Shown here: positions 10,828 through 33,388 of the stretch, piece after piece | How the letters are laid out: every line of letters starts with the position of its first letter | How positions within the stretch are numbered: the stretch's first letter is position 1 | IMG/VR virus record: IMGVR_UViG_3300027734_000156 | Location: 1 to 37,714 of that record | Strand: one strand, 5' to 3' | DNA length: 37,714 bases | From: a virus | Notes under the pieces: model-generated | The model's input: the letters and a program-made list of their open reading frames with translations, nothing else | What the model was told of the DNA's origin: nothing | Database searches by the model: none | Position numbers and translations under genes: made by a program

Positions 10828-11892
10828 TTATTCCACCGTAGTAGGCTCCAACATCTGTTCTAAATTGCGAATAAGTCGGGTGTCTGTAGGGTTGAATTCT
10901 AAAGCTTTTTTACATAATCCGACAGCTTCTTCTTTTAACCCAAGATGCCAAGCAGCAATACTACCCAAGTCCCAAGGCTTTTCACCCCAGACCAAAGGGT
11001 CCATTGTGTACACAAGCTCTTTATTGGTAATTGCAAGGGCTGATTTGGCTGCTGAATAAGACTCAATCCACATACTGTTGCGGTAACAGAACATGGACAG
11101 GTCCACCCAAGTCTCACGGGTATTAGGTGCTTCAGCTACTGCCAAGCGATACCACTTCAAAGCATCCCAACCTTGACCCAGTTCCTCATGGGATTTACCC
11201 AACAAACGCATGGCATAGGCACGTTCATTCTGCCAAGTAGCCTGTGGCATAGCCAGATAAGCGTTTAGGGCCTTTATGGCCTCTTCCCATCGACTGTAAA
11301 AGGTTAATTCCCGTGCATGGTAGAACCGATTGCGGGGGCATAGCGGGTCTTCTTGGATGGCAAGGTCCAACAAGGGCATGTATTGCCCACGGGATTTGGT
11401 TGGATCTGGGTGGTGGCTAACCAAAAGCATGTCTGTTTGGGCATAGACTTCTGTAATCCTGCCGTCAGGACGGGGATATTCATGCACTGGGTGATGCCAG
11501 TGATATCCGTGACGGTGGTGGATTTTCTCGTAAAAGAAAGAGATTCCACAACCCCAATCAAACTTGTACCGCAAACGGGTGGTTTCTGCTGTCCAAACAC
11601 GCTCTATCTCTTCACGCCAACCAGGTTCCATGACTTCATCTAGGTCTAAACTGATACAGACATCAAAGTCTTTTGGAATAAGCGATAGGGCGGCATCTCT
11701 GGCCTTGTCAAACCTCCAAGGGCTAATACAGATGTCGTGTACTCTTGCTCCACACTCCAAAGCCAATTTAACCGTGTCATCAGTGCTTCCGGTATCTGCT
11801 ATCAGGATTAGGTCAGCATCTTTGGCAGAGTCACAAAAGCGATGAACAAACTGCTGTTCGTTTTTACTGATGGCGTAAACAGCTATTTTCAT
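10828..11892 (-). CDS. Family 2-type glycosyltransferase with TPR repeats
   Basis: 354 residues. The N-terminal GT-A domain has AISKNE (7-12), ADTGSTDDT (32-40) that binds the nucleotide, and the metal-binding SLDLDE (81-86, DxD type). A histidine-rich insert follows (HHRHGYHWHHPVHEYP, about 125-140). From about 185 to the end are helical repeats (ALNAYLAM, ALKWYRLAVAEAP, ALEFNP) of TPR type. Family 2 enzymes of this layout transfer sugars to protein or glycan acceptors. The start overlaps the S74 fibre stop as ATGA, and it sits inside the tail module, so it may glycosylate a virion protein or alter host glycans. Substrate unknown. Confidence 0.85.
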   Translation of the reverse strand: MKIAVYAISKNEQQFVHRFCDSAKDADLILIADTGSTDDTVKLALECGARVHDICISPWRFDKARDAALSLIPKDFDVCISLDLDEVMEPGWREEIERVWTAETTRLRYKFDWGCGISFFYEKIHHRHGYHWHHPVHEYPRPDGRITEVYAQTDMLLVSHHPDPTKSRGQYMPLLDLAIQEDPLCPRNRFYHARELTFYSRWEEAIKALNAYLAMPQATWQNERAYAMRLLGKSHEELGQGWDALKWYRLAVAEAPNTRETWVDLSMFCYRNSMWIESYSAAKSALAITNKELVYTMDPLVWGEKPWDLGSIAAWHLGLKEEAVGLCKKALEFNPTDTRLIRNLEQMLEPTTVE

Positions 11893-13307
11893 GCTGGATT
11901 TTCTAAAGCCGTAAGGCGGGTTGTGAGTGATTCAATAAGGGCTTGCTGTTCTTGAATAGATGCAATCATTAATGGAATAAGTTCCGTGTAACGCACACCC
12001 AAATATTCGGTTTCGTCTTCTTTTGAATTGCGAACACGGTCAACCGCTTCGGGGACAACAGCCGCAACAGATTGGGCAATCACACCAACGCAAGGTTTAT
12101 TGCCAGCATCGTGCTTCCAAGTAAATTTAACTGCTTGGATTTGTGCAATGTCAGACAGAGCATTTTCATAACTGCCTGTGATATTTTTAAGTTTTAAATC
12201 AGAAGCGGAAACCCAAGAAGTTGCCCCAGAAGTTAGTTTCACGCCGCCAGACGCTGCTGAACCAGATGCAATGGTCAGCGAATCGTAATCTGTGCCGCCT
12301 TTAATCCATGAGTCAGAGCCGATATACCAACGAGCAGTTTGTGATCCATAGCTGCCAGTGCGACCAATAAGTGTTGGGCCATTATTAGTTGCTGCTTGGG
12401 CAAGCAAAACAGCTAGACCAGAGCTAGAACCACCATCACCAAAAATCCATGTTCGTGAGCCAGAGCAACTGGCAACTGGATTCCCATCCCCATCAGACAG
12501 TACGATGTAGTTGCTTGCTGTGCGAATGTCTAGGCCACTTTGGTTGCCGTTGTAGCTACCTAAGACAGAGTTTTTACTGCCAGATGTTATTGCGCTACCA
12601 GAGCCAATACCAACAAGAGTGTTGTACGTTCCCGTGAGTGAGTATCCAGATTGCGACCCAACAGAAGTGTTTTGCCCCCCTGTTGCGGCATACCCAGCTT
12701 GATAACCCAGATAAGTTGTTCCATTTACTGTTGATGTGGAATACCCTGCCTGATACCCAACGGCAGTGTTGTTTGAGGCTGTGGTGTTTGAACGCAATGC
12801 TCCCACACCAACACCAACATTGCTTGATCCAGTTGTGTTTTGATATAAAGGCGCAAATGTTCCTGAACTAGAATCGTACCCACCTATTGCTACGTTTGCA
12901 GTGCCTGTAGTGTTTGAAACAAGTGCCTGATGCCCGACAGCAGTAAGACCGCCGCCTGTGGTGTTTTGTTGAGCCGCATATCTTCCTAAAGCGGTATTGT
13001 ATGAAGCGGTTGTGTTTGAAAGAAGCGCATTATCCCCAAGTGCTGTATTACCAACGCCACTTGTATTAGCCGCCAAAGCACTAGCACCCACCGCAGTGTT
13101 GGTAGACACAGCACCTGCACCACGGCCTACTGTTAAACCTTGAATGGTTACCCCGTTAGTTGTGCTTACAACTTGACTTGCATCAATGGTGACAGCAGTA
13201 GTATTGGCTCCCGTCTGAAGCACCAAGATACCCGAAGAGTCAGCAGTAGACTTTAAGCCAGCCGATCCGCTGACCGAGCCGTTATCTGCGGAGATGATTG
13301 TTGTCAT
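11889..13307 (-). CDS. Tail fibre with C-terminal S74 intramolecular chaperone
   Basis: 472 residues. The stem (about 60-300) is a run of short imperfect repeats of the type NTAVGASALAANTSGVGN and NTALGRYAAQQNTTGG, giving a beta-structured shaft. The C terminus (about 369-472) is a peptidase_S74/endosialidase chaperone: SDLKLKNI with the serine where self-cleavage occurs in the family, GVIAQSV near 408, then YTELIPLMIASIQEQQ and a heptad coil. The chaperone trimerises the fibre and is then cut off. Ribosome site GGAG. It lies next to the fibre-assembly-like gene and the glycosyltransferase. Confidence 0.9.
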   Translation of the reverse strand: MTTIISADNGSVSGSAGLKSTADSSGILVLQTGANTTAVTIDASQVVSTTNGVTIQGLTVGRGAGAVSTNTAVGASALAANTSGVGNTALGDNALLSNTTASYNTALGRYAAQQNTTGGGLTAVGHQALVSNTTGTANVAIGGYDSSSGTFAPLYQNTTGSSNVGVGVGALRSNTTASNNTAVGYQAGYSTSTVNGTTYLGYQAGYAATGGQNTSVGSQSGYSLTGTYNTLVGIGSGSAITSGSKNSVLGSYNGNQSGLDIRTASNYIVLSDGDGNPVASCSGSRTWIFGDGGSSSGLAVLLAQAATNNGPTLIGRTGSYGSQTARWYIGSDSWIKGGTDYDSLTIASGSAASGGVKLTSGATSWVSASDLKLKNITGSYENALSDIAQIQAVKFTWKHDAGNKPCVGVIAQSVAAVVPEAVDRVRNSKEDETEYLGVRYTELIPLMIASIQEQQALIESLTTRLTALENPA

Positions 13308-21023: not shown

Positions 21024-22181
21024 TTAGCTCAGGTAACGCTGAACTTGTGCAGATGTACGAGCAGCAGTTACGGCAGCACCAGAAGAAGAAGTGCCAGCCA
21101 AAACAGCCACACCCGCTGGATTACGCACAATCAATGTGCCTTCCATAATGTACTGGTCCAAAGATGCGTCAGCAGAGCTAAACACTTCATTGTTAGGACC
21201 AAGTTCACGCAAGCTACCCCATTGGATAACGTCAGGGTTCAGGAACAAGGCAGATGTGTTATCTGCGCCAGTTTGGTCCATAACCCAAGAGTCATCAATT
21301 TGGTAGGTGTAGTTGAAGTCACCCTCGTAAGTACCAATCGTGTCACCCTTGTCAGCAGGGTTAAAACGGTTGATAGAACGGCTAGTAGGCATCTGGTCAG
21401 AGATGTGAGTACGCATCGATGTTGGGACTACCATGTTGGTAATCTTGGCATTGAAACGCTGCTCAGCAGTAGTAACCAATTGCTTGTAGGTAAAAGGACT
21501 AAACTGTTGCAAAGTCTGACCAGTGGAGAACGAAAAATAACCCAAACCAGCGTTGCTCAACAAACCATTGAAAGGTTGGTTGGTGCTAGTGGTAGTGGTT
21601 GTGTCGTTACCATCAGAAGTTGCCAAGTTTAAAACCGCAGTACCACTGGTAGGGTTACCAGAACGTGTACCAGCAAACGAATACAACGAACCAAAACGGC
21701 GACCGTTGTTAGGCGAAGAGCCTTGGCTGGAAGCTTGACCAGAGTACTTGACAGAAGCGCCATCGGCACGAACCATCTGCAGCTCAACGTCAAACATGAT
21801 TTCAGTCAATTGCTTGACTTCTTGATAGGCTTGTGGGTCACCACCAGCTTGTTCAACAGCACGAGCAGTGCCAGTAGCACCGATCACAGTGGTGAAAATC
21901 TGTGTGTAGTTACCACAGTTAGCACGGGTGTTGTTGACAGCATCAGATGCGGCAACAGCAGCGCCTTCCAACTTGGCGTTCAAGGCTGGAGTACGGTAGT
22001 AGTCAACGGGCCAAATGTGCAGAGTCGAATTGACTTTGCGTTTTTTGCTCATTGCCATGTTGGTTAGAGGGGTACGGTCTTTAACATAGTTAGAGACAGT
22101 CATATCGAGGTCTTTGACCACGATGTCGGTGGTATACGAGCCATTGCCGTTACCAAGGTTTGCAGAGGTGATAGTTGCCAT
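21024..22181 (-). CDS. Major capsid protein (SU10 / DUF5309 type)
   Basis: 385 residues. The N terminus, MATITSANLGNGNGSYTTDIVVKDLD, and blocks NMAMSKKRKVNSTLHIWPVDYYRTP, ANCGNYTQIFTTVIGATGTARAVEQAGGDPQAYQ and IMFDVELQM are the conserved elements of the SU10-type coat family, whose HK97-like fold shell is about this length. The C-terminal strand region has PDVIQWGSLRELGPNNEVFSSADASLDQYIMEGTLIV. It follows a scaffold-like gene directly (16 bases) and has AGGAG ahead of the ATG. Confident as coat protein; exact subfamily less so. Confidence 0.9.
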   Translation of the reverse strand: MATITSANLGNGNGSYTTDIVVKDLDMTVSNYVKDRTPLTNMAMSKKRKVNSTLHIWPVDYYRTPALNAKLEGAAVAASDAVNNTRANCGNYTQIFTTVIGATGTARAVEQAGGDPQAYQEVKQLTEIMFDVELQMVRADGASVKYSGQASSQGSSPNNGRRFGSLYSFAGTRSGNPTSGTAVLNLATSDGNDTTTTTSTNQPFNGLLSNAGLGYFSFSTGQTLQQFSPFTYKQLVTTAEQRFNAKITNMVVPTSMRTHISDQMPTSRSINRFNPADKGDTIGTYEGDFNYTYQIDDSWVMDQTGADNTSALFLNPDVIQWGSLRELGPNNEVFSSADASLDQYIMEGTLIVRNPAGVAVLAGTSSSGAAVTAARTSAQVQRYLS

Positions 22182-23651: not shown

Positions 23652-25820
23652 TTAATCAATCTGTACAGCAGTAAGTTTATCTCTTTTTGCTGCCAATGCT
23701 TCAAACATATTATCAGTGTCAATATCTTCAGCTTTCTTGATGTTCAATGCAGATATTGTATTAGATTCTTGTACTTTAGCATTATTAAGATCGGTCTTAG
23801 ATTGAATTTCTTTCTGTTCTGCACTAGGACCTTGCTGAGATTTTGCTTGTGCAAGTTTAGCGGCTTCTTCCATTGTTGGCAAATAGGCATCCACATCTTT
23901 GACACCCAGTACTCGCAAGGTATCTTCAAATGGGCGGCGTACCTTGGCAAACAATTCGGGCGCACTAGGATCCAGTTGCATCATCATTTGGGTAAATTGA
24001 GCTTGAGCCTGACCAATTAACTGTTGGCGGGTTAAACGGTTCTCATCCGACATAAAACCCAAAGCCAAATCAATGTTAATCAGCTTGCGGTCAATGAATT
24101 CATAGTTATCCATTGAGATGGCATCCATAAACGGCTTGCCTTTGCCGCATACACCTGCCAGTTGCTGAATGTTGTAATCATCAGCGTACTGGATGAGCGT
24201 TTTCCAAACAATGTACAAAACATCCCGCAAACCAATGGCACAGTTCTTAACCATCTCGTCTTGGATGAGTTGGTTAGGACCCATAGCAAGTTGCAATTTG
24301 TAACCGCTGTTGCCATCCTTCATTACTTCAGGGTTTAGCACATCGCCAGGGCTTGTCATGCCAATCATTGCCATCTTGTCGGCCTCAAACCGCTCCATAG
24401 ACGATTGGACGTAGGCAAGGTTGCCTTGCATTGGCGAAAACTCGTAGATGTGCTTGTTAGGATCGAATTTGCGGTCCAAAACAAACATAGCTGACACGCC
24501 ACGCTGAATTTCCTCGGCATCAATAAACTCTGGGTTTACGCCAATCCTTGGAGTAGACGATTGCATTGCAAAAGCCATCTCTGCACGGGCAATTGAGGTT
24601 GCATATTCTTGCATAGGCACAAGGCGCTCGGCAAGAGAGTAACCAAAGAAGTTTCCTGTGATAGGTTTTGGGCACATTGCCGCCAAGGGAATGAAATCCA
24701 CTTCCTTGACATACAAAACGTATGAACCTGAGAAGCAGCACTCCACAATCTCTTCTTCACCATCACCATCCACATCTTTGCGGATCCAAGCTGTGGTCAG
24801 CATGATGACTCGGCTGTAACGGTCAGCACCTGCGGAGGCCACAACGCCTTGACCAGGCACTGGAGTGGAATCACGGGCATGAAGTGCTAAATCGTTCTCC
24901 AATGCGCCAGCTTGATAGGCTCCAGCAGGGCCGTAGGCGGCATGATCTGCAAGCTTTTCAAGGTCTACATACGGAAACTGTGATTTGCACTCATGGAGTG
25001 TCATTGGGTCATAGAAACCCACAAAATCTTGGTCTTGAATGTTGGGGATTGTTGGGTTGCAAACAAAATAATGCTGGGCAACGTGTTTGATCTTCACCGA
25101 AGTGGAGAATCCGGTCATTTTGTATTTGGCACGATAGACAGTGTTGGCTCGGATAGCCTCATTCATATCTTCTTGCGGAGTATTGACTTGTTCCTCTTCA
25201 TCAGGAGCCATCATCTCCTGCATCACGCCTTGCAAATCAACGTCAATACGGCGCATGTTTTGGCGCTTGACAGTCAGACCTTTTTCAGCAGCCATAGTCT
25301 CAAAAACACGCAGTTGGTCTTTTGTGCCTTCAACTTCTTTGTACTGGGTGATAGGTTCACGCACGGGAGACACCATAACAATGCCGTTTTTGTGCAACAA
25401 AGAGTCTTGCGCCCAATCCCTGATGATTGCGTATGAATCATTCTTGGAATTAACCATGTACTTGACCATTTCGGTGGCTTGGTTAGCTTGTTCGCCATCC
25501 ATTTCACTGAAACGCTCAAACTCAAAGTTGACTTTACCGTTTGGCATCAAGCACTTAGTAATGATAGCTGTAGCGTAATCTACGCCAGGTGTCACTACGG
25601 GGTGAATGTAATCAATGCCTCGGATTGGCTCAGTGGAGTTGCTAACAGCAATGTTCAGGTAGTGATAGTCGGATAGGCGGTTAAATGTGTTCTTGGCTTG
25701 GGTTAAGCGAAGATAGTCCACCATCTTGAGATACACCTCATGGGCAACTTGGAATACGATTCCTTTATTGCCAGCAGGTGCTTCAATGTACTCAACGATG
25801 ATGTTTTGTTTATCCAACAT
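23652..25820 (-). CDS. Portal protein (P22-type, large)
   Basis: 722 residues from ATG at 25820, which has AAGGATCTAAT before it; an upstream in-frame start inside the terminase gene is rejected. Portals of the P22 family are about this size. Supporting blocks: PIRGIDYIHPVVTPGVDYATA, RDWAQDSLLHKNGIVMV, FFGYSLAERLVPMQEYATSI, and the long helical C-terminal barrel region rich in Q/A. It forms the dodecameric ring at one capsid vertex through which DNA is packaged and ejected. The upstream terminase stop is shared (TAATATG). Confidence 0.85.
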   Translation of the reverse strand: MLDKQNIIVEYIEAPAGNKGIVFQVAHEVYLKMVDYLRLTQAKNTFNRLSDYHYLNIAVSNSTEPIRGIDYIHPVVTPGVDYATAIITKCLMPNGKVNFEFERFSEMDGEQANQATEMVKYMVNSKNDSYAIIRDWAQDSLLHKNGIVMVSPVREPITQYKEVEGTKDQLRVFETMAAEKGLTVKRQNMRRIDVDLQGVMQEMMAPDEEEQVNTPQEDMNEAIRANTVYRAKYKMTGFSTSVKIKHVAQHYFVCNPTIPNIQDQDFVGFYDPMTLHECKSQFPYVDLEKLADHAAYGPAGAYQAGALENDLALHARDSTPVPGQGVVASAGADRYSRVIMLTTAWIRKDVDGDGEEEIVECCFSGSYVLYVKEVDFIPLAAMCPKPITGNFFGYSLAERLVPMQEYATSIARAEMAFAMQSSTPRIGVNPEFIDAEEIQRGVSAMFVLDRKFDPNKHIYEFSPMQGNLAYVQSSMERFEADKMAMIGMTSPGDVLNPEVMKDGNSGYKLQLAMGPNQLIQDEMVKNCAIGLRDVLYIVWKTLIQYADDYNIQQLAGVCGKGKPFMDAISMDNYEFIDRKLINIDLALGFMSDENRLTRQQLIGQAQAQFTQMMMQLDPSAPELFAKVRRPFEDTLRVLGVKDVDAYLPTMEEAAKLAQAKSQQGPSAEQKEIQSKTDLNNAKVQESNTISALNIKKAEDIDTDNMFEALAAKRDKLTAVQID

Positions 25821-25821
25821 A

Positions 25822-27414
25822 TTAGATCCTTTGCGCCTTGCCTTCAACAGCGGTTAACCTGCGAAACTCAAATGTATTCGCTCGACTGACTAATGACTCA
25901 CCGTGACCTTGAATAAGTGCAAGTATGCCAATACGAGCAGAGTCAATGTGGTCATCAGGATCACTGAACTTGCCAGCATCATCAATAGCATAGTTTCTTG
26001 CCTCATCAAGGAAATCGACACATGCTTCATTAATCATAAATGTTCCACGCTCCATCCCCATCCGCATTATATTGATTCCGTAAGATTTGTGGTTAGTTAC
26101 CTTGCCCATATCGTTTACAGGGTTCAATATAGCTCCAGCGATGCAATTAAGGCCATAGTTGTCCTCAAATACTTCCCTGACAGATTGCTCAGTCAGAGTA
26201 TACCTTCCCGCTTGGGCGGCATCGTGCGGAAGTGCTATTGGAACGCCTTTTGACTCCTTGTCCATCAAATAATGGACGTATTCATCAGGAGTTTCCCCTT
26301 GGGCAACCTTTACTTGACGGTGCAGGTAGATGATTTCCTCCACAGGATCCCTAAAAAAGAAACTGATAACCGTAGGGTCGTTTTTAATTCCCAAGTCAAA
26401 AGAAATTAATCTTTCCATCTTGGAGTTGTTTCTTAGGTCAATGTCTGTAGACTTATAGGTAGGCCATTTGAGCAGCGGGAATACTACGCCTTTGCCAACT
26501 AAAGGAATACCGTTTATACGGCACTCTCGCTCCCAAGGCATAAAGTCTCGGCTTAACTGATCCCGCTCTTTCTGGCTAAAGAAGCTTTCACCCCATTCAT
26601 TTTCAAAGGGTACATCATCCCAAGTTACTCGAATATGCGTGTAGCCTTCTATTCTGTCCCAGAATCTGCGAACAAGTCCTGACATGCCTTTGAGTGGTGT
26701 GAAAGAACACAGTACCTGCCCGTTGCGTTGTGCAGTACGGATGACAAGCTCTGAGAATGTCTCGTCAGGGGGTTGCTCGTCCAAGACAACAAGGTCAAGT
26801 TCAAAACCCTGCAGATGGCGCACTTGCTGTGTGTAGTTGGAGAAGTAGAGTTTGGATTTGCCACCAGAAGAATGCCAGATTTCAATAGACAGGACGTTTG
26901 CACCATCGGTGCGGTATGACTTCTCGTCAATGCTTTCCAAAGGAATAGCACCCGTTCCTAGTTTGTATGCTTGTTTGATATCGTCACAACCCAACAATTT
27001 GGATTGTAGCGTTTTTGCAACTTGTTCCCAAGATTCACCAGCCGCCATCGCAATAATGGGTTTGTCCCATTTCTTGCCTTTCCAGTTCTTTGGATACATG
27101 CCTGTCAGGTGGTAGGCAGTCTCATAGGTAGACGCAATGGTCTTTCCGGTACGGTTACCCGCAATCATTCCTCGGCGGGTGAAATGATTGCCAGTTTCAA
27201 AGAAGTCAGTCTGATACTTGAATGGCCTGAACCATTTCAAAGCGTTGTACTGCATGTCTTTGGCAATGGTATCTCTTGCCGCCATCATCTTGCGTAGCTG
27301 GTCAGAGTCCATTTGGTTGGTAGCCTTTTTGCCACCAGCCAACTTAACAAGATGTTTTAAGGCTCGATCTTTGTAGATCGGTTGGATGTAGTCACTGGCT
27401 TCACTTTTTGCCAT
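25822..27414 (-). CDS. Terminase large subunit
   Basis: 530 residues from ATG at 27414; a GTG nine bases upstream is an alternative. The ATPase has GNRTGKT (86-92, Walker A), LDLVVLDE (206-213, Walker B with catalytic glutamate) and SFTP (237-240, coupling motif). The nuclease domain has ISFDLGIKNDPTV (first Asp near 340), PHDAA near 397, and DPDDHIDSARIG close to the end. The enzyme packs DNA into the prohead. It overlaps the preceding small gene by 14 bases. Confident. Confidence 0.95.
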   Translation of the reverse strand: MAKSEASDYIQPIYKDRALKHLVKLAGGKKATNQMDSDQLRKMMAARDTIAKDMQYNALKWFRPFKYQTDFFETGNHFTRRGMIAGNRTGKTIASTYETAYHLTGMYPKNWKGKKWDKPIIAMAAGESWEQVAKTLQSKLLGCDDIKQAYKLGTGAIPLESIDEKSYRTDGANVLSIEIWHSSGGKSKLYFSNYTQQVRHLQGFELDLVVLDEQPPDETFSELVIRTAQRNGQVLCSFTPLKGMSGLVRRFWDRIEGYTHIRVTWDDVPFENEWGESFFSQKERDQLSRDFMPWERECRINGIPLVGKGVVFPLLKWPTYKSTDIDLRNNSKMERLISFDLGIKNDPTVISFFFRDPVEEIIYLHRQVKVAQGETPDEYVHYLMDKESKGVPIALPHDAAQAGRYTLTEQSVREVFEDNYGLNCIAGAILNPVNDMGKVTNHKSYGINIMRMGMERGTFMINEACVDFLDEARNYAIDDAGKFSDPDDHIDSARIGILALIQGHGESLVSRANTFEFRRLTAVEGKAQRI

Positions 27415-27589
27415 ACAGGTCACGCATAGACAAAAGCAAATCAGCGGCAGAGGCTAAATAGTAAACGTCTTGAGGGGGTAGAGTCCGATCTCCTTGAAGA
27501 TCTTTTTGTAACCACTCAAGAGTCTTACGGGCGCAAACTTCTGCTTGAGCCGATAGCTTTTGACGAAAGACGGAAGATTGATCTTCCAT
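27401..27589 (-). CDS. 62-aa helical protein before terminase
   Basis: 62 residues, helical (KLSAQAEVCARKTLEWLQKDLQ, DVYYLASAADLLLSMRDLYGKK), starting at the TAATG shared with the preceding stop. Small helical proteins just upstream of a large terminase are sometimes terminase-associated or small-terminase-like, but no family is recognised here. An alternative start three codons upstream is less likely because the shared stop-start is the usual arrangement in this genome. Confidence 0.6.
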   Translation of the reverse strand: MEDQSSVFRQKLSAQAEVCARKTLEWLQKDLQGDRTLPPQDVYYLASAADLLLSMRDLYGKK

Positions 27590-31480: not shown

Positions 31481-31502
31481 AAAGCCTCATTAATGGGGTT
31501 TT
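31481..31502 (+). terminator. Possible weak terminator or attenuator
   Basis: AAGCCTC, loop ATTAAT, GGGGTTT: a 7-base stem with two GU pairs, followed by TTGTTG rather than a clean T run. It lies between the 30-aa gene and the clamp-like gene, so partial attenuation of the clamp mRNA is possible. Confidence 0.3.
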
Positions 31503-31548
31503 GTTGCCTGTGCTTTACAGGGTTAACAATTCAAGAAATGGTCACACA

Positions 31549-32169
31549 ATGAAAATTACTCTCAAAACCAATGTTTTACGCGCTGCATTACTTTGTGCGG
31601 CAAAAAAAGACTTGCGTTATTATTTGCAAGGTGTTTGTATTTCAATAAATCACCGTGATATTGCAATGATTTACGGGACAAATGGACATATTCTTTTTGC
31701 CGGGCAATGTCTTATTGACACAATAGAAGCTCCAGAAGCCCTGGGTTTTGATATCATTGTTCCTGCTGAAGTTATCAAAGCAATAGATAAAAAATCTGAA
31801 GTAGTAATGCTTGAAACCATTGATTCAATGCCTAAAGGGTATTACGTCTTAGGAAATTCCCGTTTTCAAGCAATAGATGCACGTTATCCAGACATCACCC
31901 GCGTAGTTCCATCGCGTGAAGCCTTTGGAGATCCAAAAATAAGTTATTTCAAGCCAGAATATCTTTGCACTGCGAATGAAGCTTTAGCAATGTATTACGG
32001 CGATAAAAAAGACAAATGTTATTCATTGTCGCAAAGAGGGGATCAGTCGGGGGTTGTTCACAATGGAAGAAATGATGCTCTAGTGGTAGTAATGCCAATG
32101 AGAAATGATCCAGACAATTATCAAGGTTTAAATTACGATTTTATGCAAGTTCAACAAAAAGCAGCATAA
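31549..32169 (+). CDS. Sliding-clamp-like protein, two-domain-sized (DnaN domains 2-3)
   Basis: 206 residues from ATG 31549 (the longer 222-residue frame lacks a better start). It aligns by eye with bacterial beta clamp from domain 2 onward: LRAALLCAAKKDLRYYLQGV against the QDVRYYLNGM region of E. coli DnaN, GTNGHILFAG against TDGHRLAV, DIIVPAEVIKAI against VIVPRKGVIEL, ARYPDITRVVPSR against GRFPDYRRVLPKN, and the C-terminal ALVVVMPMR against YVVMPMRL. Domain 1 is absent. A clamp tethers polymerase to DNA. Bacterial clamps are dimers of three domains; two-domain subunits (PCNA, T4 gp45) form trimers. A trimer is therefore my inference. Terminator follows directly. Confidence 0.8.
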   Translation: MKITLKTNVLRAALLCAAKKDLRYYLQGVCISINHRDIAMIYGTNGHILFAGQCLIDTIEAPEALGFDIIVPAEVIKAIDKKSEVVMLETIDSMPKGYYVLGNSRFQAIDARYPDITRVVPSREAFGDPKISYFKPEYLCTANEALAMYYGDKKDKCYSLSQRGDQSGVVHNGRNDALVVVMPMRNDPDNYQGLNYDFMQVQQKAA

Positions 32170-32229: not shown

Positions 32230-32361
32230 TCGCGTGCGCGTGCGTTTGTATGCGCGTGCGCGTTTGTCCTTGCGTGCGTTTGTAGCACGCTGGGTGCGTG
32301 CGCGTGCGTGCATGGGTGCGCGTGCATAGGTGCGTGCGTTTGTAGGGGTGCGCGTGCGCGT
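32230..32361. repeat. GCGTGC-rich array, alternating purine-pyrimidine
   Basis: About 130 bases of almost continuous GCGTGC/GTGCGT, with very little A. GCGTGCGTTTGTA occurs three times exactly (32238, 32272, 32332), 34 and 60 bases apart, with a shorter variant GCGTGCGCGTTTGT between. Alternating purine-pyrimidine GC/GT tracts can adopt Z-DNA. No coding frame is convincing here. Its position right after the clamp terminator is compatible with an origin, a packaging or a regulatory element. Confidence 0.75.
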
Positions 32362-32697
32362 TATGTATGGAAATGACCCAGCAAAGCCTTTAAACAAGCG
32401 TTTAAGCGTGTTTTGTGGTTTTTGAATAGGTAGCTATGTCTTTTGCGTTTATGCGCTTATGCGCGGTTCTATGCTTTGTTGCGTAAAAACCACTGTATGG
32501 AAACACAATGTTGCGAAAAAACCACTGGGGTAAAACACACGAGAACTAGGGTAAACCCTATGTAGTACTCGTCTAGGGGGGTAAAAATGGTGTTTTTTTG
32601 CGTACAGAAAGGACCCCCCCCCCTCAAAAAATCTAAGGCCTTGTAAAAATGACCCCACCCCTTTTTTATTTTGCCCACCCTTTTTAAACTTTTGACG
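32362..32697. other. Non-coding convergent region with repeats and C/G runs
   Basis: No supported gene. It holds 17-base near-identical repeats (32479, 32511), GTGGTTTTT in the opposite orientation at 32415, CTAGGGTAAACCCTATG (32546-32562), a third TCTAGGGGGGT (32572-32582), a run of ten C at 32614-32623 and two CCC-CCC tracts. Two overlapping minus-strand frames of 69 residues are low-complexity translations of these runs and are not called. Confidence 0.6.
32479..32527 (+). repeat. Iteron-like repeats TTGCG(T/A)AAAAACCACTG
   Basis: 17-base direct repeats at 32479-32495 and 32511-32527 that differ at one base, with starts 32 bases apart (about three helical turns). The core AAAAACCAC also occurs inverted at 32415-32423. 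Such spaced repeats resemble iterons bound by replication initiators, but no initiator is identified. Confidence 0.5.
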
Positions 32698-32721
32698 AAA
32701 AAAAACCTCCCGAAAGAGGTT
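32698..32721 (-). terminator. Intrinsic terminator of the replication module
   Basis: On the minus strand AACCTC, loop TTTCGG, GAGGTT, then TTTTTT. It is 33 bases after the stop of the Dps-like gene and faces the plus-strand terminator at 32201, marking the end of leftward transcription of the right-hand module. Confidence 0.9.
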
Positions 32722-32753: not shown

Positions 32754-33104
32754 TCAACTGAGAAATCTGAGCTTGTAAAGCGTTGAATCTATTCTATCAC
32801 CTATGCTGTCTAGCAGGTTCTGGATCTCACTGTCTGGTGGCATTACATTGCGATTATCTACAAAATACTCACGCAGCTCTTTTAGCTCTTGCAAGCCATT
32901 TTCTGCTGGTGGGTAGTAGTCTGCTGGGTATTGAATGATCTCACCCATCACACCTTGTGTGGCCTCCACCAAGGCATCAATTAGTTCAGGCAGTTCAGTG
33001 TAGAACTCACCCAATGCTGAATGCTCTGCAAAGCTTTTGGTCTGCCAATGCAGGATGTGAGTATTGGTAGCTGCGTGTAGCAAAGTCAGTATGAATTCAC
33101 CCAT
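32754..33104 (-). CDS. Dps/ferritin-like protein (DUF5856-type)
   Basis: 116 residues with the ferritin-like four-helix look. Helix 1-2 has ATNTHILHWQTKSFAEHSAL (about 12-31) and then YTELPELIDALVEATQG (35-51). The residues H19, H28, D43 and E47 mirror the ferroxidase set of Dps; the H28-D43-E47 spacings of 15 and 4 equal those of typical Dps proteins, though the loop after the HW pair is three residues shorter. A role in iron oxidation or storage, or DNA protection, is inferred from this. Phage members of this family are known but of unknown function. AAAGGAG ribosome site. Confidence 0.7.
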   Translation of the reverse strand: MGEFILTLLHAATNTHILHWQTKSFAEHSALGEFYTELPELIDALVEATQGVMGEIIQYPADYYPPAENGLQELKELREYFVDNRNVMPPDSEIQNLLDSIGDRIDSTLYKLRFLS

Positions 33105-33121
33105 GATAGGCTCCTTTAACG

Positions 33122-33388
33122 TTATTGTAGGCCATCTAGCAGACGTTGGATAGTTATGTTGAGAGCATCCATCTCATCCATGTGTTTGATAGCCCACATA
33201 CGCTTTTGCCCATGCCAGCCAAGTAATGGTCCTTGGTGGCAAGATTTACACAAGGCAATGCAAGTGAATTGTCTGTGCTGCTTGACATGGTGGGCATCAC
33301 TGGGTCCAGGCTCATCACATACTGAACAAGGTAATTCTTTGATAAGCGCCAAATGCAATCTCTCACGGGCGTTTAGCTTGTTGTTCAT
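33122..33388 (-). CDS. HNH / Ref-like zinc nuclease
   Basis: 88 residues. CSVC (21-24), DAHHV (31-35), CKSC-H (47-51) and GWHG (57-60) form the zinc and catalytic set of small HNH endonucleases of the Ref/RecA-dependent type, where the first HH is catalytic and the cysteines bind zinc. It probably cuts DNA during recombination or resolution. The start overlaps the 108-aa gene as ATGA. Confidence 0.75.
   Translation of the reverse strand: MNNKLNARERLHLALIKELPCSVCDEPGPSDAHHVKQHRQFTCIALCKSCHQGPLLGWHGQKRMWAIKHMDEMDALNITIQRLLDGLQ

Follow-up and report, generated by a model that had tools for sequence, protein, structure and literature searches.

The last gene of a leftward operon in a phage genome record appears to encode a pared-down, Dps-type mini-ferritin that would handle iron and peroxide by metal chemistry during infection, a reading to which we give a probability of roughly 0.6. 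The window, by which we mean the whole analyzed stretch of 37,714 nucleotides, is a phage record by its genes for terminase (25822-27423), portal (23652-25847), major head protein (21024-22181) and tail fiber (11889-13307), and its terminase shares 82% identity with the one in podovirus ctfne034 (MW202484). Translation, Pfam, PHROGs, profile searches and an AlphaFold2 model identify the product of the open reading frame at 32754..33104 (minus strand), a protein of 116 amino acids, as a member of the DUF5856 / PHROG 858 family with the predicted form of a minimal Dps-like four-helix bundle.

The open reading frame is real. A Shine-Dalgarno-like AAAGGAG, found by direct reading of the sequence, lies a few bases 5' of its ATG (33111..33117, minus strand), and a hairpin with a T run resembling an intrinsic terminator (32704..32721, minus strand) follows just 3' of its stop codon. 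This hairpin is one of two terminator-like sites found against 2.2 expected by chance; such sites are common by chance, and we credit this one because its position fits. Against close relatives, dN/dS is 0.04-0.10 (about 0.05), which argues for a conserved protein under strong purifying selection. The upstream neighbor (33122..33388, minus strand), assigned to PHROG 1588, encodes a small Cys/His HNH-type protein, and the leftward block that ends in the DUF5856 gene also encodes RusA, a PAPS-reductase-like protein and a replication initiation protein. Elsewhere in the window, the product of 31501-32169 is RusA-like by PHROG 3007 and weakly matches a sliding-clamp domain (PF02767, 0.003; PHROG 947, 1.6e-6). 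It is possibly a DNA polymerase clamp, and the PHROG name RusA may be wrong. Imperfect repeats rich in GTGCGTGCGCG, an alternating purine-pyrimidine sequence, occupy 32230-32360 between two convergent gene blocks. Beyond them come a direct repeat of 32 bases (32477-32539) and, near 32610, a run of C.

The protein matches PF19174 (DUF5856) across the entire profile (positions 1-94 of 94; E 1e-19, 71.7 bits against a cut-off of 34.6) as well as PHROG 858, annotated 'starvation-inducible transcriptional regulator' (E 1e-24). It shares 55% identity with the member in ctfne034 and 49% with that in Methylophilaceae phage P19250A. By tblastn, DUF5856 relatives are present in 1147 phage records, mainly of T4-type and Ackermann phages, and IMG/VR holds well over 500 relatives. 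Structural neighbors in BFVD are found also in Pithovirus and Fadolivirus, and a prasinovirus protein bears the same annotation (PMC11408933). A bacterial reservoir was considered and set aside, as the candidates amounted to two MAG contigs that are probably phage or prophage pieces. One further open reading frame (locus L041, 3102-3722) carries two tandem DUF5856 domains, the second without its first helix; it is perhaps an assembly artefact and was left out of the analysis.

The original prediction was built on four residues, H19, H28, D43 and E47, that were said to mirror the Dps metal site. Their codons lie at 33048..33050, 33021..33023, 32976..32978 and 32964..32966, respectively (all minus strand), and the translation confirms their positions. 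In the family alignment and by hhalign, they correspond to H51, H63, D78 and E82 of E. coli Dps. The residues are spaced by 9, 15 and 4 in the window protein and by 12, 15 and 4 in E. coli Dps; as had been claimed, the last two spacings are exact and the loop between the histidines is shorter than in bacterial Dps, by three residues. Comparison with DUF5856 relatives, proposed at the outset as a check, favored the site: the four residues are the same in every one of 131 distinct relatives, including those of T4-type, Ackermann and jumbo phages. One IMG/VR scan pattern contained H19, so the invariance of that residue was partly selected for in that scan, but H28, D43 and E47 were part of no pattern in the scans from which this count was drawn. 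All four are also kept at 16 named-phage loci found by plain tblastn without any motif. The fetched loci contain roughly 10,850 mechanical open reading frames that escape the family profile, and only 2 of these contain H-x8-H-x14-D-x3-E; the motif is therefore not a product of chance. Strong conservation is also seen at A30, Y35, G51, S24, N96 and Y110. The ferroxidase reading of the four residues is well supported as homology, and the activity is a prediction from it.

Homology to Dps becomes visible at the level of the family profile. Searched as a single sequence against the PDB, the window protein gave no Dps match, whereas nearly all top matches of the family profile were Dps proteins, among them H. 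pylori NapA (1.1e-5) and S. aureus Dps (2.4e-5), with the four residues in register against the PDB chains and a gap of three residues in the first loop. When the family was compared by hhalign with a profile of nine bacterial, plasmid and phage Dps sequences, the two aligned end to end over 115 columns (E 1.4e-5, probability 80%), again with H/H/D/E in register. The short first loop is no barrier between the families because two DUF5856 relatives, from Krischvirus ECD7 and podovirus ctEw122 (HFGVTGPGSYAKH and HLMTAGPGSFAAH), have a first loop of Dps length. It reads 'TGPGS' or 'AGPGS', similar to 'TGPQF' in one bacterial Dps. Pfam Ferritin (PF00210) matched none of 36 DUF5856 members at E 0.1, and in NCBIfam no Dps model was matched, the only matches obtained being chance ones.

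The predicted structure is the four-helix bundle that the original prediction anticipated. AlphaFold2, given an alignment of 36 sequences, produced a confident model (pLDDT 96, pTM 0.88) with helices at residues 2-21, 25-53, 70-87 and 92-114. Foldseek ranked Dps proteins at the top (for E. coli Dps, probability 1.00 with an E of only about 0.02), with query TM scores mostly of 0.60-0.72. VIA-align against Dps gave Z of about 11 over 114-116 residues, and a Z of 11-12 for a helical bundle falls within the range the tool itself warns about. Bacterioferritins and YciF-type proteins score nearly as high, so that the fold by itself indicates 'ferritin-like', and it is the sequence profile and the residues that point to Dps specifically. 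Taken as a statement about homology and modeled structure, we regard the Dps-like character of the protein as nearly certain. This part of the earlier reading holds for the fold and the four ferroxidase-type residues but does not extend to two other hallmarks. No helix is modeled in residues 54-69, meaning that the BC-loop helix of Dps is absent, and the fifth iron ligand of Dps (D67 in E. coli, D47 in Listeria), an Asp in 8/9 aligned Dps sequences, is G32 in the window protein and a non-acidic G or Q in most relatives. Given these two departures and the missing PF00210 match, we use the name 'Dps-like DUF5856 protein' rather than 'Dps'.

The Dps metal site lies between two subunits, with two His from one and the Asp and Glu from the other. 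By homology, DUF5856 subunits would likewise pair around a two-fold axis, as a dimer or within a dodecamer, and H19 and H28 of one subunit would hold ferrous iron together with D43 and E47 of its partner. The iron would then be oxidized, preferably by hydrogen peroxide, and kept as ferric iron. Removing both Fenton reagents could protect phage and host-cell nucleic acid during infection. Metal binding is likely, and control of peroxide and iron during infection is our best guess for the role of the protein, at somewhat better than even odds. The loss of the fifth ligand, the short first loop and a length well below that of Dps would also fit a ferritin-like fold whose metal site is structural, or serves zinc or manganese, without ferroxidase function. 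We find this very doubtful, as the four principal ligands, including both carboxylates, stay fixed across the 131 sequences while most of the surface varies.

Any protection would come from metal chemistry and not from coating DNA. Only some Dps proteins have a Lys-rich DNA-binding tail. The window protein has a charge of -12 and a pI of 4.4, with no N- or C-terminal extension and no Lys-rich tail, and all 36 members of the alignment are acidic. These properties speak against compaction of DNA and favor metal chemistry, the mode of those Dps proteins that do not bind DNA. The earlier suggestion that the protein could compact DNA is at odds with its predicted charge and its lack of tails; we rejected compaction as unlikely, and DNA binding of the kind seen in E. 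coli Dps is likewise unsupported.

We surveyed the genomic context of 79 DUF5856 representatives, 72 of which had a gene call. An HNH-type nuclease lies directly upstream in 29/72 loci, 15 of the YbcO type and 14 of the RecA-dependent-nuclease type. Initial hints of a lysis cassette came from rI in T-even phages, a 'holin' in P19250A, a lysozyme in ctfPj964 and spanins near the gene in Klebsiella phage Muenster. The P19250A 'holin' (KX815270; locus L074, 8351-8788) encodes an HNH-type protein, with a weak PF01844 match and a Cys/His motif, and its annotation is probably wrong. Since that gene is an HNH gene and most window-type relatives adjoin HNH nucleases, we dropped the lysis cassette as a general context and kept it for T-even phages only. 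Several related phages encode a GTA-type holin and an M15 peptidase three to four genes downstream.

In the T4-type phages, the link to lysis is closer. In T6 and in the six T4-type phages examined, namely Krischvirus ECD7, Tulanevirus, Muldoonvirus, Gualtarvirus and two Klebsiella phages (with T6, loci L078, L158-L161, L163 and L164), rI, which encodes the antiholin regulator, is immediately followed by the DUF5856 gene, known there as rI.-1. According to a review of Golec 2010, overexpressed rI.-1 slightly prolongs T4 lysis inhibition (PMC6832632). Both observations would be expected of a protein that regulates when lysis occurs by means of a ferritin-like fold, with metal or redox state as its signal. 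We consider this quite unlikely: the effect, as that review relays it, is small and comes from overexpression; the direct neighbors outside T4-type phages are HNH nucleases; and RaK2 has a homolog without T holin or RI (PMC3622015). Two T4 stocks carry a frameshift in rI.-1 (PMC8573959), which indicates that the gene is dispensable in the laboratory and counts against our main reading of a protective mini-ferritin.

A second setting ties the domain to the phage head. Chryseobacterium phage MA9V-2 (OR513085; locus L080, 1576-5214) encodes a 1213-amino-acid protein that joins an N-terminal Peptidase_S77 prohead protease to a DUF5856 domain (amino acids 465-581) with all four ligands intact, and its gene has a capsid assembly gene on one side and the major capsid gene on the other. 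The same fusion is found in MA9V-1. The MA9V-2 protein contains many 'INES'-like stretches, similar to the (L/I)xE sites at which the T4 prohead protease cuts, and we take them to be putative cleavage sites. The fusion to a protease together with these stretches points to a possible release of the domain within the capsid. An IMG/VR scan with the MA9V-2 domain for more prohead-protease fusions returned three stand-alone genes.

These fusions, and a DUF5856 gene directly 3' of the portal gene in podovirus ctEw122, raise the alternative of a virion-associated mini-ferritin, packaged in or on the particle, where it would act on the iron or peroxide that surrounds the packaged DNA or is met at entry. 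A related protein, gp217 of Sajous1, was detected by mass spectrometry in CsCl-purified virions and modeled as a ferritin by Phyre2; its authors propose a role in entry (PMC10892097). The same study reports only 10 spectra, allows that low counts may reflect contamination, and saw no dependence on the host iron-uptake genes TonB/FeoB in the one host tested (PMC10892097). The window gene itself lies in a leftward DNA-metabolism block with RusA and replication initiation rather than among head genes, and we judge a virion role for its product unlikely. Iron and peroxide handling within the infected cell remains our preferred reading.

Should that reading hold, many lytic phages would carry their own means of controlling iron and peroxide. 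It gives a chemical function that can be tested to a family labeled as of 'unknown function', which occurs in more than a thousand phage genome records and includes rI.-1. It would be a larger step, and an improbable one at present, to see DUF5856 as a widespread viral mini-ferritin that is found in the particles of at least some phages, in the MA9V phages as a product of the prohead-protease precursor, and works with rI in T4-type lysis inhibition. Phages of every scale, small podophages and jumbo phages alike, would then share iron and peroxide handling as a general means of controlling infection.

The ferritin character of DUF5856 is not wholly new. Besides Sajous1 gp217, the Muenster record precedes us in noting that HHpred matches the protein to a mycobacterial Dps, 4M32. 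Less known are the place of T4-type rI.-1 in DUF5856 and the fusion to a prohead protease in MA9V-1 and MA9V-2; within open-licence papers, a literature search found none that connects rI.-1 of T4 with Dps and with the invariant site. A long-known accessory gene of T4 lysis inhibition is thereby placed in a Dps-like family.

Among known systems, the nearest is the family itself, including T4-type rI.-1 (MobD.6), which resembles the window protein over its whole length, in the four residues and in fold. The T4-type members are only about 30% identical to it, however, and the window context has no rI. Sajous1 gp217, from a Vi01-like Salmonella phage, is by our analysis also a DUF5856 member but comes from a large myovirus. 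True Dps genes are carried by Lactobacillus phages, Bacteroides-type gut phages and Streptomyces phages, and have been proposed to ease oxidative stress (PMC6669764, PMC8008677). These too are phage-borne members of the ferritin superfamily, yet they match bacterial Dps directly, whereas DUF5856 does so by profile only. With the Dps / NapA / Dlp mini-ferritins (E. coli Dps, H. pylori NapA, M. smegmatis Dps2), the window protein shares the four-helix bundle, the H-H-D-E order, the two exact spacings and a W after the first H. It differs from them in being 116 rather than about 150-167 amino acids long, in having neither BC-loop helix nor tails, in the three residues trimmed from its first loop, and in a D67 position that is not acidic.
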